Shown piece by piece: positions 10,363-20,883 of a stretch of DNA of 35,623 bases. Position numbers and translations under genes: made by a program. Origin of the DNA: a virus. Below the pieces are notes generated by a model. The model made no database searches. It saw nothing but the letters and a program-made list of their open reading frames with translations, and was not told where the DNA came from. The DNA lies in the IMG/VR virus record IMGVR_UViG_3300017987_000217, positions 1 through 35,623 of that record; one strand, given 5' to 3'. Positions within the stretch are counted from its first letter, which is position 1, and each line of letters starts with the position of its first letter.

Positions 10363-10431
10363 TACGCGCACGCACGCGCGCACGCGCGCACGCGCACGCA
10401 CGCGCGCACGCGCACGCACGCGCGCACGCAT
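10363..10431. repeat. Alternating purine-pyrimidine (CG/CA) tract
   Basis: About 69 bp of almost unbroken alternation of CGCG and CACG units. This is a classic Z-DNA-forming sequence. It lies about 20 bp upstream of the 10450 promoter, where it could absorb negative supercoiling or act as a slippage hot spot. A weaker CG/CA-rich stretch recurs at about 10688-10735. Confidence 0.7.
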
Positions 10432-10449
10432 CGGCCGCCGATTAATCGT

Positions 10450-10684: not shown

Positions 10685-10870
10685 CATGCGCGTCGGTGGC
10701 ACGCGCGCACGCGCACGCCCGCATGCACGCCCGCCTGCATCAGCGGCATCGGCAGCACGCCCCGAGACCATCGGCCGGATCGAAGCCGTCATCGACGCCC
10801 GTGATATTGTCGACAATGGCGACCCACAAAGACCATCGGCGGGATCAAGGCCGTCGTCGGTCGCTGTGTG

Positions 10871-10961
10871 TTTAAAAGTTGCCTAACATCAATAATCGTC
10901 ACAATCCACAAAAACCGGCGACACGGGTTATAACGATTATCGGTGTTTGACAACTTTTAAA
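10871..10961. repeat. Large interrupted palindrome
   Basis: TTTAAAAGTTG (10871-10881) is the exact inverse of CAACTTTTAAA (10951-10961). Inside, AACA/TGTT (10885-10888, 10944-10947) and ATAATCGT/ACGATTAT (10892-10899, 10933-10940) continue the pairing, leaving a 33-base central loop. Flanks add G-C and G-T pairs. Such a composite AT-rich palindrome can form a cruciform or be a replication-initiator or regulator site. It opens the iteron-rich stretch. Confidence 0.65.
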
Positions 10962-10993
10962 CGCGCAGCTTGTATGTGATATTGTGGACAAAA

Positions 10994-11670
10994 TAAGTCC
11001 AAAATACTACGAAATTTTTCGTACTTCCGCCTCCGCGCGGCCGCAAGTCCGGTCTAGTCCACAATTAGTCCGTGACTGTCACGATCTCGGACTAACGTAA
11101 CCCCTGCCTCCATAAGTACTTATACCCTATTAGTCCATCTAGTCCATCATTTTAGAAGAAGAAAAAAGAAGAAGCAGATATAGGGCATAAAGAGGACATA
11201 ATGGGTCCAGTAATAATCATAACGGACGCCTTATGCATATTGCGACTATAGAAAGTTTTAGGGTGCCATGTCACGGACTGTTGCGCAAGGAAATCAAACA
11301 TAAATACTTGCCACACAAGCATTTACATCTAGTCCATTAGGTTTTTGCTCTGGACTAGACATTGAGCTAATCCCTTACCACACAAAGACTTATATCAAAA
11401 CCGCATTTCGGCGCATGTAAAGGCCGTTTTTGAACGTAAGTCCTTGCCAGTAAAGCACTTAGATTGGACTACCGCCCTGGACTAATCTTGCCGAGACGGC
11501 CAGAGGCCGTAGGACGGCCTTCACCCACCGACAGTACCGATTGTCCATTCTGAGGCATCCTGAGGCCATCTAGAGGCCGTCTGTAGGCACACGCAGCCGC
11601 CCGCACGCCACAAGCCCGCAACGCACAAAAAATCCTTACGTAAACCCTTGCATAGCAAGCACTTAGCATC
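10994..11670. other. Iteron-rich gene-free region, candidate origin of replication or regulator array
   Basis: Nine copies of TAGTCC or its complement lie within 430 bp (starts 11055, 11066, 11131, 11140, 11330 on the plus strand; 11089, 11352, 11466, 11479 on the minus strand), far above chance. A degenerate 23-bp repeat of type CTTGCCACACAAGCATTTACATC-like length recurs at 11307, 11374, 11443 and 11647, each with CTT(G/A)C at its start and an A/T-rich ACTTA end. A 7-bp palindrome TACGAAA, TT, TTTCGTA lies at about 11007-11022, and a purine-rich tract at about 11152-11178. No gene is convincing here. Confidence 0.55.
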
Positions 11671-11687
11671 TTTCTTGCACTTTTGGT

Positions 11688-11716
11688 TTGGCAAACGGCT
11701 TTGCATGATGTATGCT
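11688..11716 (+). promoter_or_regulatory. Sigma-70 promoter of the early leader
   Basis: TTGGCA (11688-11693), 17 bp spacer, TATGCT (11711-11716). The flanking bases resemble the 10450 promoter (TTTGGCA, and TATAC following). Its transcript would begin near 11723 with a GTCGGC/GCCGAC hairpin and run through about 590 bases of leader before the gene at 12314. Confidence 0.65.
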
Positions 11717-11791: not shown

Positions 11792-11819
11792 AAGCTCTAG
11801 GAGAAACAAGCTCTAGGGG
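11792..11819 (+). promoter_or_regulatory. Tandem sites complementary to the small RNA at 18485
   Basis: AAGCTCTAGGAG (11792-11803) and AAGCTCTAGGGG (11808-11819) stand 16 bases apart in the early leader. The exposed segment of the small RNA contains the exact complement of 10 bases of the first and 12 of the second. The second site is followed by a GGGGAA/TTCCCC-type hairpin (11816-11831). No convincing start codon lies right behind, so these may be decoy or processing sites rather than translational targets. Confidence 0.5.
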
Positions 11820-12313
11820 AACCGATTCCCCGCCACAAAGAAAGTCGGATGCGTCTGTGTGCCCTTGAATGTGGCCCGGTATCCGGCAGCATACGGGGAG
11901 GGTATGTCTATGGCTAGCGAACGCCGAAGGCGTCTGCGGCGTGCCGAGACTACCCCGCACGATGTGACCGCTTCCCGCGAAGGATTCGCGCTCCAGAGAC
12001 TGGAGAGTATACGCCCACGACGGGCGGGAAGCCACATCACATCGACCATACCCTGGGCACCGAAGAAGCCATCCGGGACAGGCGCTTGGTTAGCGCTGTC
12101 CGTGAATCGGCAGTCGCGGGGCCGTATGGTGCGGGGACGGTCGAACAGCACGCCAAAACTCCAAGCGTCATACGTTCGGGCCTTCCGAGCGGATTGACGG
12201 AACATAGGGGGCTGCCCATCAGGGTGGCCCCCGTTGCATATCCTCTCTCACACCGCAAGCGTCGGCATAGTGCCGATTCTATACGTTGTTGCTCCATTTA
12301 CGGGAGAATCACC
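11820..12313 (+). other. Long early leader, no convincing gene
   Basis: About 490 bases between the leader motif and the gene at 12314. A plus-strand frame at 11904-12197 starts after GGGGAGG, but its product is extremely Arg-rich and unlike its neighbours. A second frame is open from about 11916 to the end of the gene at 12508, yet has no good start before 12314. Neither is supported firmly. The region holds strong hairpins (see 12207) and a TCGGC/GCCGA hairpin at about 12259-12273. Confidence 0.4.
12207..12232 (+). repeat. Strong intergenic hairpin before the first small gene
   Basis: GGGGGC pairs with GCCCCC, with an inner GCCC/GGGT stem and an ATCA loop. No T tract follows, so an RNA stability, processing or attenuation role is more likely than termination. 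Confidence 0.55.
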
Positions 12314-12508: not shown

Positions 12509-12558
12509 GCACGGTGTGCGGGTACGGCCCCTACGGGGGCCTGTCCCCTGCGCCGTGC
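12509..12558 (+). repeat. Intergenic hairpin, family member 1
   Basis: Three stacked stems, GCACGG/CCGTGC, GCGGG/CCCTGC (one G-T) and GGCCCC/GGGGCC, with TGT and TAC internal loops. It lies between the stop at 12506 and the gene at 12595. No T tract. Confidence 0.6.
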
Positions 12559-12594
12559 AGGGACAATCTAATAACGCTTTTGTGTGGAGGCTCT

Positions 12595-12773: not shown

Positions 12774-12823
12774 CACGGTGTGCGGGTGAGAGGCCACGTG
12801 TGGCCTCCATCCCCTGCATTGTG
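12774..12823 (+). repeat. Intergenic hairpin, family member 2
   Basis: Inner perfect stem GAGGCCAC, GT, GTGGCCTC; outer TGCGGG/CCCTGCA with TGA and CAT internal loops. Same plan as member 1. Confidence 0.6.
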
Positions 12824-12825
12824 GT

Positions 12826-12837
12826 TAAGCTCTAGGG
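12826..12837 (+). promoter_or_regulatory. Small-RNA target covering the ribosome-binding site of the 19-residue peptide
   Basis: TAAGCTCTAGGG is the exact reverse complement of bases 18535-18546 of the small RNA. The site includes most of the AGGGAGA ribosome-binding sequence (12834-12840) of the peptide gene starting at 12846, so pairing would block translation. Direct sequence observation; regulation inferred. Confidence 0.6.
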
Positions 12838-12845
12838 AGAACATC

Positions 12846-12905
12846 ATGCAATCATTCTGGGAATTGATCTGGTTAGCCATGCTCGCGTACCTGGCCTTGT
12901 GTTGA
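12846..12905 (+). CDS. 19-residue hydrophobic micropeptide, possible small-RNA-controlled toxin
   Basis: MQSFWELIWLAMLAYLALC: a short polar head and one membrane-spanning helix with two Trp, the composition of type I toxins and other phage membrane micropeptides. AGGGAGA lies five bases before the ATG. Its leader carries a perfect 12-base match to the exposed segment of the small RNA at 18485. It stands between two hairpins of the same family. Coding is inferred from site, start and composition; it is too short for statistics. Confidence 0.6.
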   Translation: MQSFWELIWLAMLAYLALC

Positions 12906-12906
12906 T

Positions 12907-12954
12907 TGCGGGTGTGCGACCGATGGCCGTCGTGTGACGGCCACCGCTCCTGCA
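12907..12954 (+). repeat. Intergenic hairpin, family member 3
   Basis: Inner stem GGCCGTC, GTGT, GACGGCC; outer TGCGGG/CCTGCA. It begins right after the micropeptide stop codon. Confidence 0.6.
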
Positions 12955-12980
12955 CCGGTGATGGGAGAAAGGCAGGTGAT

Positions 12981-13714: not shown

Positions 13715-13894
13715 ATGCTGTGTGACCAGTGTGATGCACTCGTGATAAATGGCGTGTTGTGCCATGAATTTGAGTGCCCGAACGCGTGGCGAGGTGCTGT
13801 CCGCCAGTGTGCGTGGTGCGGGCAGGAATTCAAGCCGGAAAATAAGTTTCAGAAGTGCTGTAGTATAGAATGCGCCGAGGCGTACTACAGCTGA
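13715..13894 (+). CDS. Double zinc-finger protein
   Basis: 59 residues. The first module, CDQCDALVINGVLCHEFECPNA, is a pattern I know from small phage proteins of unknown role (CxxC, then NG..CHE..CPNA). The second, CAWCGQEFKPENKFQKCCSIEC, has the MYM/FLYWCH-like spacing of a C4 finger. AGAGGGTG precedes the ATG. Probably a nucleic-acid or protein adaptor. Confidence 0.7.
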   Translation: MLCDQCDALVINGVLCHEFECPNAWRGAVRQCAWCGQEFKPENKFQKCCSIECAEAYYS

Positions 13895-13943
13895 CGCGGT
13901 ACGGGTGCGGGCTGTCGCCCGACAGCCTCATCCCCTGCTGCGT
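13894..13943 (+). repeat. Intergenic hairpin, family member 4
   Basis: Inner perfect stem GGCTGTCG, CC, CGACAGCC; outer ACGC/GCGT with a G-rich/C-rich middle. It begins at the stop codon of the zinc-finger gene. Confidence 0.55.
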
Positions 13944-17401: not shown

Positions 17402-18037
17402 ATGAAACGCTACAAACTGACAACGCAGGACATGAAAACACGTCCTGGGGAAAGAAACGAAACACGGTGGGTCGTGGGGGAGTGGGTTGAAGCTACAGGT
17501 GACCTGGAACAGGACTTATGTTCGGATGCGTACATTCACTGGTATGACGACCCATTACTAGCTGTTTTGCTGAATCCGGTTCACGCCTGTCTTGATAATC
17601 CAAGGTTGTGGGAAGTTGAGGTTACTGGGGACACAAAAACAGACGGACAGTTGAAGGGCGGTTCCAGGCGAGTGCGATTGGTGAGGGAAATCGACGTGCC
17701 CAGAATAACAATAGAAATGTGTGTGACATTTGCCATTCTGTGTGCCAAGGCCGTATACAAAGACAGAGAATGGAACACATGGGCAGACCGATGGCTGAGT
17801 GGAGAGGATCGCACTACCAACGCTGCTGACGCTGCCGGCTACGCTGCCCGTGCTGTTGTCGACGCCGACGCTGTCTCGGCTGCCAACGCTGCTGCCAACG
17901 CTGCTGACGCTGCCGGCTACGCTGCCCGTGCTGTTGTCGACGCCGACGCTGTCTCGGCTGCCGACGCTGCTGTTGACGCTGCCTATGCTGCTGTCGATAT
18001 TGATCTGAAGAAGATCGCAACAGAGGCCACGCGATGA
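17402..18037 (+). CDS. DUF7666-like protein with an alanine repeat tail
   Basis: 211 residues. Residues 1-110 have the plan of phage DUF7666-type proteins: an N-terminal YKLTTQDM segment, a middle LLNPVHACLDN (a position-conserved 'glhlC' element) and a WEVEV...RRVRLVREI strand pair. Residues 110-140 are helical with a Cys and Trp (FAILCAKAVYKDREWN). The tail (about 138-203) is Ala-rich with AADAAGYAARAVVDADAVS repeated at a 26-residue period, typical for this family, and may form a solenoid or coiled stack. Function of the family is unknown; protein-interaction role inferred. ATGA overlap with the next gene. Confidence 0.7.
   Translation: MKRYKLTTQDMKTRPGERNETRWVVGEWVEATGDLEQDLCSDAYIHWYDDPLLAVLLNPVHACLDNPRLWEVEVTGDTKTDGQLKGGSRRVRLVREIDVPRITIEMCVTFAILCAKAVYKDREWNTWADRWLSGEDRTTNAADAAGYAARAVVDADAVSAANAAANAADAAGYAARAVVDADAVSAADAAVDAAYAAVDIDLKKIATEATR
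17817..17961 (+). repeat. 78-bp tandem repeat inside the Ala-rich gene
   Basis: A 68-bp block at 17817-17884 recurs without a mismatch at 17895-17962, a period of 78 bp or exactly 26 codons. The perfect identity points to recent duplication by slippage or recombination, keeping the frame. Confidence 0.85.
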
Positions 18038-18289: not shown

Positions 18290-18457
18290 ATGTTGAAAGC
18301 TATTCTCTTTTTCATTGGTGTTCATTCAGCCCCGCCCTTGGCGATGTTGGTTCTGGGCTACATGGCCGGGGTAAGGGGAGGGGCCTTGTTGCTGTGCGTC
18401 GTCATCGCCGTTATTGCCTGGATCATGTTTTTGGATTTTATTGGGGATCAGGATTGA
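18290..18457 (+). CDS. Small two-span membrane protein
   Basis: 55 residues with two hydrophobic segments: about 4-24 (AILFFIGVHSAPPLAMLVLG) and about 32-50 (ALLLCVVIAVIAWIMFLDF), separated by a short basic turn (AGVRGG). That is the size and plan of small phage inner-membrane proteins, including some holins, though the location away from lysis genes argues against holin. GAGGAAG precedes the ATG. Its stop overlaps the -35 of the small-RNA promoter. Confidence 0.6.
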   Translation: MLKAILFFIGVHSAPPLAMLVLGYMAGVRGGALLLCVVIAVIAWIMFLDFIGDQD

Positions 18458-18482
18458 CACGCCCGGCATCATTTGCTATACT
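18454..18482 (+). promoter_or_regulatory. Near-consensus sigma-70 promoter of the small RNA
   Basis: TTGACA (18454-18459) is a perfect -35, followed by a 17 bp spacer and TATACT (18477-18482). Transcription should begin near 18488-18490. The strongest sigma-70 promoter in the window, yet no open reading frame follows it before a terminator. Confidence 0.8.
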
Positions 18483-18484
18483 AT

Positions 18485-18567
18485 GATCGGCCCGCTGGGT
18501 TTCGAGTGCCGATACTGCACAGTATCGGACTCACCCCTAGAGCTTACCAGCGGGCCGATCCTTTTTC
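18485..18567 (+). ncRNA. Structured small RNA with an exposed antisense segment
   Basis: GATCGGCCCGCTGG (18485-18498) pairs perfectly with CCAGCGGGCCGATC (18547-18560), followed by CTTTTTC: closing stem and terminator in one. Inside, GAGT-G-CCGATACT (18504-18516) pairs with AGTATCGG-ACTC (18521-18532) around GCAC, with one bulged G. This leaves GTTTC on the 5' side and the 14-base ACCCCTAGAGCTTA (18533-18546) exposed on the 3' side. That segment is complementary to the leader motif at 11792, 11808 and 12826. No start codon with a ribosome-binding site lies inside. The RNA ends one base before the integrase stop codon on the other strand. Confidence 0.75.
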
Positions 18568-19407
18568 TCAATCATCTTCATCAAGGCAGTCGGTCGCTCC
18601 CGTTACACTCGGGCGGGTAAGGTGTACGTACACCGTTTCCGTCGTCCTGGTGCTGGCATGGCCCAGAATCTCAGCAATCTTCTTGAGGGATTCTCCCTTC
18701 TCGACCATGCGCGTCGTGAAGTAGTGCCGCAGACTGTGTGGTGTGGCGACGGGGTCGATCCTCGCCCGGCGAGACACGGCCTCCAGCATGTGTGAGAGAT
18801 GCCGTCGATGCTTGTTGTAAGCGGCAACAAACGGGATCGGGTCTTCTCCTTTGTGTTTGAGTAGCATTTCTCGTAGGCCCCAGCTTATCGGAACCGAGCG
18901 AAATCGATCTTGTTGTCCTCGCTTGGTTTTTCCTCGCACCACGACATGTCGGTAGTCGGGTGTGAAATCCTTCCAAGCGATGCAGCAAAATTCCCTGGTT
19001 CGCGCGCCGGTACGCGCCAGGAAATAGATAGCTTCCCACTCCGTTCCTCTGGCCGCTCGCAAAAGGAGCTGTACTTCTTCATGTGAGAGTATCCGTCGCG
19101 AGATTTCTGCTTTCGGTAGGTAGTCCACTTTCCGCATGGGGTTGTCCAGATCGTATTGTCTGCTCACCCAGTGACACAGGCTTTTCAATACATTAATATA
19201 TGTGTTGACTGAATTGGTTTTCACGCCCGTAGTGACAAGCTGGTCCTTCCAGTCATCAACTTGTCGCCAGCTCAGTTCTTCGAAGTATGGTGGCATGAAC
19301 GGTCGGAATCTGCGCATCACCTTACAGTACAATTCCGTGGTTGCCTCTGAACGGTGGAGTCGGATGTACTGTAGCCACTGACGAATTACTACCTCAGAGT
19401 GATTCAT
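18568..19407 (-). CDS. int: Tyrosine recombinase / integrase
   Basis: 279 residues from ATG 19407 (GAGGAGA seven bases upstream; a longer frame has no site). An N-terminal SAM-like core-binding domain (about 1-95) precedes the catalytic domain. Catalytic residues are all visible: R136 in ARTGARTRE, K162 in GKTKRGQ, H224 and R227 in HSLRH, H250 in LGHAS and the nucleophile Y260 in ETVYVH. XerC/D-like size rather than lambda-like, without an arm-binding domain. It reads against its neighbours and converges on the small-RNA gene. It would integrate the phage or resolve dimers; no attP core can be named from one sequence. Confidence 0.9.
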   Translation of the reverse strand: MNHSEVVIRQWLQYIRLHRSEATTELYCKVMRRFRPFMPPYFEELSWRQVDDWKDQLVTTGVKTNSVNTYINVLKSLCHWVSRQYDLDNPMRKVDYLPKAEISRRILSHEEVQLLLRAARGTEWEAIYFLARTGARTREFCCIAWKDFTPDYRHVVVRGKTKRGQQDRFRSVPISWGLREMLLKHKGEDPIPFVAAYNKHRRHLSHMLEAVSRRARIDPVATPHSLRHYFTTRMVEKGESLKKIAEILGHASTRTTETVYVHLTRPSVTGATDCLDEDD

Positions 19408-19639
19408 TTTTCTTCTCCTCACGTAAAGAATAGTGATAATTTGGTAAAACGCAAATCGTTTTTCGCCCGAAAAAATCTCGCGTCCCGGCTGTTTGGCAGC
19501 TACAAAACAGTAATTGAGAATAAACCACCAGCCTATCCCAGACCGATAGCCCGAGATGCACGACTTTATCGGGCACATTCCGAGGGTATCGTATCATCAG
19601 TTTCGAATCAAGTCAAGAAAATTTTTTAGGGGGTGTCGT
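19408..19639. other. Divergent intergenic region between int and the next operon
   Basis: 232 bases with no gene. For int, TTGCGT, 16 bases, TATTCT is a possible promoter on the minus strand (about 19422-19449). On the plus side, an A/T-rich stretch (AAAATTTTTTAG) and GGGGGTG precede the gene at 19640; no good sigma-70 promoter is seen. A regulator or attachment site would be expected here. Confidence 0.35.
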
Positions 19640-20256: not shown

Positions 20257-20432
20257 TAGAACACACTGAACTCAGCGTTTTCCGTCCGGCTTGGACTCAA
20301 CGCAAACTCCAAGCCGGCGGTGATTTGCTCTGGCACGGAATCATAGAAGGATATTTCGACAAGACGCAAGGCATGCCAGGTAAAATCGGTAGGGTTATTG
20401 AGCGCAGGCGGCGCAATCGTTACAACCCGTAG
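20253..20432 (+). CDS. Hypothetical 59-residue protein
   Basis: ATG overlaps the preceding stop. MIEHTELSVFRPAW, then a small hydrophobic core (DLLWHGIIEGYFDK) and a strongly basic tail (RRRRNRYNP). Last gene of its cluster; a T-rich stretch follows at 20434-20464. Confidence 0.55.
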   Translation: MIEHTELSVFRPAWTQRKLQAGGDLLWHGIIEGYFDKTQGMPGKIGRVIERRRRNRYNP

Positions 20433-20475
20433 CTTTTCACGCCACTTTTTCACTTTTTTCTTTCACATTCCTCAT

Positions 20476-20520
20476 AAAATCCGGGGTTTGAACTTATATT
20501 CCAGCCCTTTATTGGAGGCG
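20476..20520 (+). promoter_or_regulatory. Conserved promoter block (copy 2) of the HTH-regulator operon
   Basis: AAAATCCGGGG, TTTGAACTTATAT, CAGCCCTT, ATTGGAGG: matches the minus-strand block at 10041-9999 apart from a two-base swap, one A/G change and small length differences at the end. It ends with the ribosome-binding site of the gene at 20527. TTATAT is a possible -10 with no sigma-70 -35. Confidence 0.6.
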
Positions 20521-20526
20521 ATTAAC

Positions 20527-20883
20527 ATGCTCAAAAAGACTTTCGAAGATTTTGTTGATCTGGCGTTTTTCACGTTTGGCAAACACGAGAAATTGGTGAC
20601 GACAGAAGATGAACAACGAGAGCGAGAAAGGATCAGAACGCTCTTGTTGTCACACATGCGAAATCGCGGTGTTACCAAGCGTCAGGTTGTCTGTTATATC
20701 AACTGGGTTAATGGAATGACTCAAGGACAAATAGCAGACGAACTTGGTGTTGAGCAACCAGCCATCAGTCAGTTTCTTAATGGGCTCAAAGACAAGTGGC
20801 CTCATCTCTTTCAATTCCCGGAGGTTGTTATGCACCAGTACGATCCTCTGCGAGACGACCACCAAACTCTGAGGCAGTTCTAA
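20527..20883 (+). CDS. Helix-turn-helix regulator (sigma region 4-like)
   Basis: 118 residues. The region of about 50-95 reads VTKRQVVCYINWVNGMTQGQIADELGVEQPAISQFLNGLK, a helix-turn-helix of the sigma-70 region 4/ECF type where TQGQIADELG is the first helix and VEQPAISQFLNGL the recognition helix. The N-terminal half is acidic-basic helical; there is no sigma region 2, so it is not a full sigma factor. Its gene stands right behind the promoter block shared with the late operon. It may be the activator or repressor of both. Ribosome-binding site GGAGG. Confidence 0.7.
   Translation: MLKKTFEDFVDLAFFTFGKHEKLVTTEDEQRERERIRTLLLSHMRNRGVTKRQVVCYINWVNGMTQGQIADELGVEQPAISQFLNGLKDKWPHLFQFPEVVMHQYDPLRDDHQTLRQF

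Follow-up and report, generated by a model that had tools for sequence, protein, structure and literature searches.

In a temperate, uncultured phage, a short stretch of DNA separates the last gene of a rightward run from a convergent integrase gene and raises the question of whether it encodes a regulatory RNA and, if so, which genes such an RNA would control. The window examined comprises positions 1 to 35,623 of virus record IMGVR_UViG_3300017987_000217. Few instances of phage immunity mediated by RNA are known, namely the c4 RNA of P1/P7 and the CI RNA of P4. The reading that we favour, to which we assign a probability of about one half, is that the element encodes an antisense RNA acting in trans to repress early phage genes, with a likely role in lysogeny. 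A rigid two-helix RNA would display a single 14-nt segment able to pair with AAGCUCUAGGRG, present as two tandem copies in a putative early leader, and with the Shine-Dalgarno sequence of a small early ORF. Pairing would block translation and may also cause early transcription termination, and the resulting repression of the early region would favour or maintain lysogeny, with a putative function in immunity.

Promoter, fold and terminator of the RNA element

The consensus promoter reported in the preliminary description was confirmed, TTGACA at 18454-18459 being followed by a 17-bp spacer and TGC-TATACT, with the -10 box at 18477-18482. This 11/12 sigma-70 match is the single such site within the window, where 0.3 are expected from shuffles. 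The 55-codon hydrophobic (membrane-protein) ORF that precedes the element (18290-18457, plus strand) has a stop codon overlapping the -35 box, and the plus-strand gene run of the right arm terminates at 18457. The perfect 14-bp closing stem, the inner stem with one bulge, the lone single-stranded segment of 14 nt and the T tract are all present as originally described (Table 1). The window has just one perfect inverted repeat of 14 bp whose arms are closely spaced, and 60 shuffles gave none; the 114-nt element folds at -49.4 kcal/mol (z -6.07), a value for which none of 200 shuffles was as good. CTTTTTC follows directly 3' of the closing stem (18561-18567). The usual start distance places +1 near 18488-18490, and the mature closing stem may therefore be 10-14 bp. 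From these signals a small RNA transcribed from its own promoter is predicted.

Table 1. Coordinates of the RNA element, its proposed targets and related features. Positions are those of the window except where another contig is named.
Feature	Position	Strand	Basis or remark
Sigma-70 promoter TTGACA-17-TATACT, TG extension	18454..18482	+	sequence, 11/12 match
Predicted small RNA, ~76-82 nt	18485..18566	+	fold z -6.07; +1 inferred at 18488-18490
Closing stem 5' arm, GATCGGCCCGCTGG	18485..18498	+	perfect 14 bp
Closing stem 3' arm, CCAGCGGGCCGATC	18547..18560	+	
Inner hairpin, 4+8 bp, one bulged G (G18508), 4-nt loop	18504..18532	+	fold prediction
Exposed unpaired 14-nt segment ACCCCUAGAGCUUA, proposed antisense region	18533..18546	+	opening cost 1.4 kcal/mol
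T tract, intrinsic terminator	18562..18566	+	sequence
Tyrosine integrase, 279 aa, convergent with small RNA	18568..19407	-	Pfam PF00589 E 1.4e-22
Possible early promoter TTGGCA-17-TATGCT, upstream of targets 1 and 2	11686..11714 approx.	+	sequence, weak, 9/12
Proposed target 1, AAGCTCTAGG, first 16-bp tandem-repeat copy	11792..11801	+	10-nt perfect complement
Proposed target 2, AAGCTCTAGGGG, second tandem copy	11808..11819	+	12-nt perfect complement, duplex -23.6 kcal/mol
Proposed target 3, TAAGCTCTAGGG, covers next ORF's Shine-Dalgarno	12826..12837	+	12-nt perfect complement
19-codon hydrophobic ORF MQSFWELIWLAMLAYLALC, behind target 3	12846..12905	+	sequence; weak coding score
L090 terminator RNA with own promoter	L090 1945-2036		carries 13-nt antisense stretch
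DUF5906-upstream stem elements	L066 18892-18994; L071 17311-17397; L081 18861-18963; L063 19183-19313		
DUF5906-upstream stem elements, continued	L068 9209-9314; L046 12303-12436; L083 18458-18565; L070 16044-16137; others		

The original statement that the element contains no coding frame requires correction in its wording, as an ATG frame of 45 codons (18483-18620) does cross it, but this frame starts upstream of the likely +1 and its coding score is that of non-coding sequence. That the RNA belongs to none of the named families was upheld: a search of Rfam 15 with the small RNA gave no family above the gathering threshold, a permissive scan returned only a chance mir-2518 hit (E 0.9), and a tRNA search of the element found none. 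The element converges on the minus-strand integrase gene, whose end coincides with that of the T tract. A dedicated RNA gene converging on the integrase is supported by sequence only.

The same location, between the end of the rightward gene run and the convergent integrase, would also suit an element that is mainly a terminator or insulator of the rightward operon, with read-through from the promoter acting in cis as antisense to the integrase in the manner of OOP. Integrase mRNA reading through would be complementary to the RNA along its full length, and closing-stem plus T-tract elements are used between genes in related phages. An 11/12 promoter and an exposed segment with distant 12-nt matches would both be superfluous in a terminator, however, and the 3' end of the integrase gene in the relative L090 has no such element; we consider this explanation unlikely, if a serious one. 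A role as a DNA site, in which the inverted repeat directly adjoining the integrase gene would be its attachment or recombination site, is highly improbable, as it leaves the promoter, T tract and antisense matches unexplained. Related integrases (L118, L143) have a tRNA or tRNA fragment on their 5' rather than 3' side, and by this analogy an attP at the inverted repeat was rejected.

Two further features were observed in this part of the window. The integrase leader (19405-19582, minus strand) forms an extended structure (z -2.94), with a T tract ahead of the integrase Shine-Dalgarno sequence, and is a possible attenuator. At 17814-17969 an Ala/Asp-rich segment of the DUF7666 protein gene is tandemly duplicated (78 bp, 97% identical).

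Complementarity of the exposed segment to the early region

A comparison of the complete 76-nt RNA with the entire window gave complements of at least 12 nt at two sites, both to the exposed segment only, together with a third of 10 nt. All three lie on the early-gene strand where the rightward early region begins, and target 3 spans the Shine-Dalgarno sequence AGGGAG belonging to the ATG at 12846. Permuted exposed segments gave two or more 12-nt sites in 0/5000 cases and a single match of at least 12 nt in 41/5000, while the best duplex energy of -23.6 kcal/mol was reached by 0/206 permuted segments. After the cost of opening both partners, net pairing energies are about -11 to -17 kcal/mol, the strongest being that of target 3 (-14 to -17 kcal/mol). 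The preliminary description named the 14 nt as an antisense segment but gave no target, and its interpretation is partly supported: candidate targets exist within the genome, at leader and ribosome-binding sites of the transcribed strand, in excess of those of shuffled segments.

A trans-acting antisense RNA is favoured because the exposed segment is the only part of the RNA with 12-nt complements elsewhere in the window, because both the two-site and the duplex-energy matches exceed shuffles, because every site is on the early strand with one over a Shine-Dalgarno sequence, and because the phage carries an integrase. The same reading is weakened because, of random 14-mers from this genome, ~3% have a match of at least 12 nt and ~0.1% two or more matches of 12 to 14 nt, and because no convincing ORF lies directly behind targets 1 and 2. 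The three target copies belong to one repeat family and are consequently not independent. In addition, a protein at 20398-20883 with a weak HTH match could be a conventional repressor. A search confined to the starts of ORFs of at least 40 codons gave nothing above shuffles, the matches emerging only in the whole-window search.

The tandem sites look as though they are located in an early leader, ~80-105 nt downstream of the possible early promoter and just upstream of a well-folding region, 11820-12245. That region (~425 nt, plus strand; z -4.41) has no Rfam family match and no ORF with a good coding score, a score that is weak evidence for short ORFs, and may represent a large structured phage RNA located immediately after the tandem targets.

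Since the strongest net pairing is at the site of the 19-codon ORF, the RNA may instead be the antitoxin of a type I toxin-antitoxin-like pair, blocking the Shine-Dalgarno sequence of this peptide. Type I antitoxin RNAs are antisense RNAs that block translation of a small hydrophobic toxin (PMC8309996), and target 3 is likewise at the translation start of a short, hydrophobic candidate peptide; the L090 RNA described below is also aimed at a small hydrophobic ORF. In contrast to type I systems, there are three target copies here, two of them without a clear peptide ORF, and the tandem leader sites are left unexplained by such a pairing. Toxicity of the peptide is only putative, this phage has many small hydrophobic ORFs, and the RNA and ORF are 5.6 kb apart, so that we find this explanation rather improbable. 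Binding of a host or phage protein or of a host mRNA, for example as a polymerase decoy, would make the phage matches a product of chance. The rigid, largely double-stranded RNA with its asymmetric internal loop is compatible with such a role, but the in-genome complementarity is above shuffles and neither 6S nor any other Rfam family was matched, making it a poor candidate.

Other repeated structures were observed in and around the early region. Intergenic cassettes recur between small early ORFs (12510-12560, 12774-12824, 12905-12960 and 13894-13943), each consisting of a closing stem plus an inner hairpin (...GTGCGGGT...CCCCTGC...). Between the gene arms, 10863-10969 and 11298-11666 contain a 45-nt imperfect inverted repeat and three 29-nt iteron-like repeats, likely a replication origin, and a GCGCAC/GCACGC simple-repeat run (10364-10433) adjoins the left arm.

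Distribution of the element and a parallel in L090

Conservation was examined among ~100 relatives gathered via the DNA polymerase A protein. MAG contigs in which relatives occur carry the names Planctomycetota (two), Aegiribacteria, Neptuniibacter and others. The small RNA is present in one second contig only, which is 99.97% identical over 13.5 kb. A covariance search, suggested in the preliminary description as a check on the stems, produced no homolog: a single-sequence model of the RNA (R1) detected none beyond the near-identical contig in ~105 related viral loci and no credible one in 392 Planctomycetota genomes, its best chance-level hit being to a GC-rich contig (E 0.005). BLAST of the RNA against phages likewise gave no homologs. 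As no homolog exists in these searches except the near-identical contig, the fold has no covariation evidence, which weakens the trans-antisense reading, as does the restriction of its targets to one repeat family. Integrase-based searches for further temperate relatives led to the L118, G159 and G177 integrases, all without the RNA.

Retention of the stems and promoter in related phages, on which the earlier account had made its reading depend, was not observed at the corresponding place in the nearest integrase-bearing relative, L090. No other relative found had this type of integrase in the same gene neighbourhood; the two proteins are 27-29% identical and the L090 gene occupies the matching rightward region, with no RNA element at its 3' end. 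However, 2.5 kb upstream of its integrase L090 has a promoter, TTTGCA-18-TATAAT as read from the sequence, followed by a terminator RNA of ~90 nt. A 13-nt stretch of this RNA, largely in a hairpin loop, is complementary to AAAAGCGGAAAGC, which immediately precedes the ATG of a 42-aa hydrophobic ORF, at the ribosome site. The L090 duplex was equalled by 1/148 shuffles, and the sequences of the L090 and window-phage RNAs are unrelated. The existence of an independent parallel of this kind argues for a trans-acting antisense function. When 109 terminator-like hairpins were scanned without bias, complements to start sites were only slightly above shuffles (5 non-repeat hits versus 0-3); this barely raised count weakens the trans-antisense reading, and the parallel is therefore suggestive, not proof. 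The 5' end of the L090 RNA also contains a copy of its own target motif.

Relatives commonly carry another type of element upstream of the DUF5906 helicase gene, in which a T tract and then the next Shine-Dalgarno sequence come after a closing stem of 11-18 bp. The inserts are tRNA-like in some (tRNA score in L070, cloverleaf fold in L071) and variable in others. A promoter/stem motif shared between these elements and the small RNA was considered and dropped, given their position upstream of DUF5906 and the tRNA-like character of some.

Comparison with known phage RNAs

CI RNA, which serves immunity in satellite phage P4, is a small structured RNA that pairs with seqA and seqC and shuts off replication genes in the lysogen, two-site pairing stopping early transcription (PMC4825925). 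The two complementary sites in what appears to be an early leader resemble this arrangement. CI RNA is, however, processed from the primary untranslated transcript of the region that it controls, whereas the window RNA is predicted to be a separate gene beside the integrase with its own promoter, starting at 18485, 6.7 kb from the leader sites, and is thus not leader-derived. The c4 RNA of P1/P7, an immunity RNA of ~77 nt, masks the ribosome-binding sites of genes of the phage (PMC5320573, PMC12197685), and the single-stranded segment of the window RNA is similarly complementary to an early-gene ribosome-binding site, over 12 nt at target 3. c4 RNA (Rfam C4) folds into three stem-loops, is released from a precursor by RNase P and uses its loops a' and b' for pairing, in contrast to the two stacked helices, own promoter and terminator seen here. 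No match of the window RNA to the three-stem C4 covariance model reached the gathering score, and the promoter abutting the RNA argues against RNase P processing. The lambda OOP RNA, 77 nt long, influences lysis-lysogeny (PMC12197685); it is antisense in cis to its target, unlike the window RNA, whose proposed targets are distant. By analogy, the best reading is that the window RNA would work like P4 CI RNA and P1 c4 RNA yet be unrelated to them and a member of neither family, membership being denied because there is no Rfam match, the fold differs, the RNA has its own promoter and it is not leader-derived.

If this reading is true, an immunity RNA that stands alone next to an integrase in uncultured phages and is unrelated to the known ones would suggest that RNA control of lysogeny arose repeatedly, and such RNAs would have been missed because they are invisible to Rfam and to gene callers. 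The predicted segment-target pairs are open to direct test via compensatory mutation. More tentatively, and in our view doubtfully, a class of integrase-linked, self-promoted antisense RNAs may control lysogeny in the group of uncultured phages considered here, every phage evolving an RNA sequence of its own to match its own early ribosome-site repeat. Such a class would constitute an RNA-based analogue of repressor-operator immunity specificity, of which the window phage and L090 would be two independent instances.
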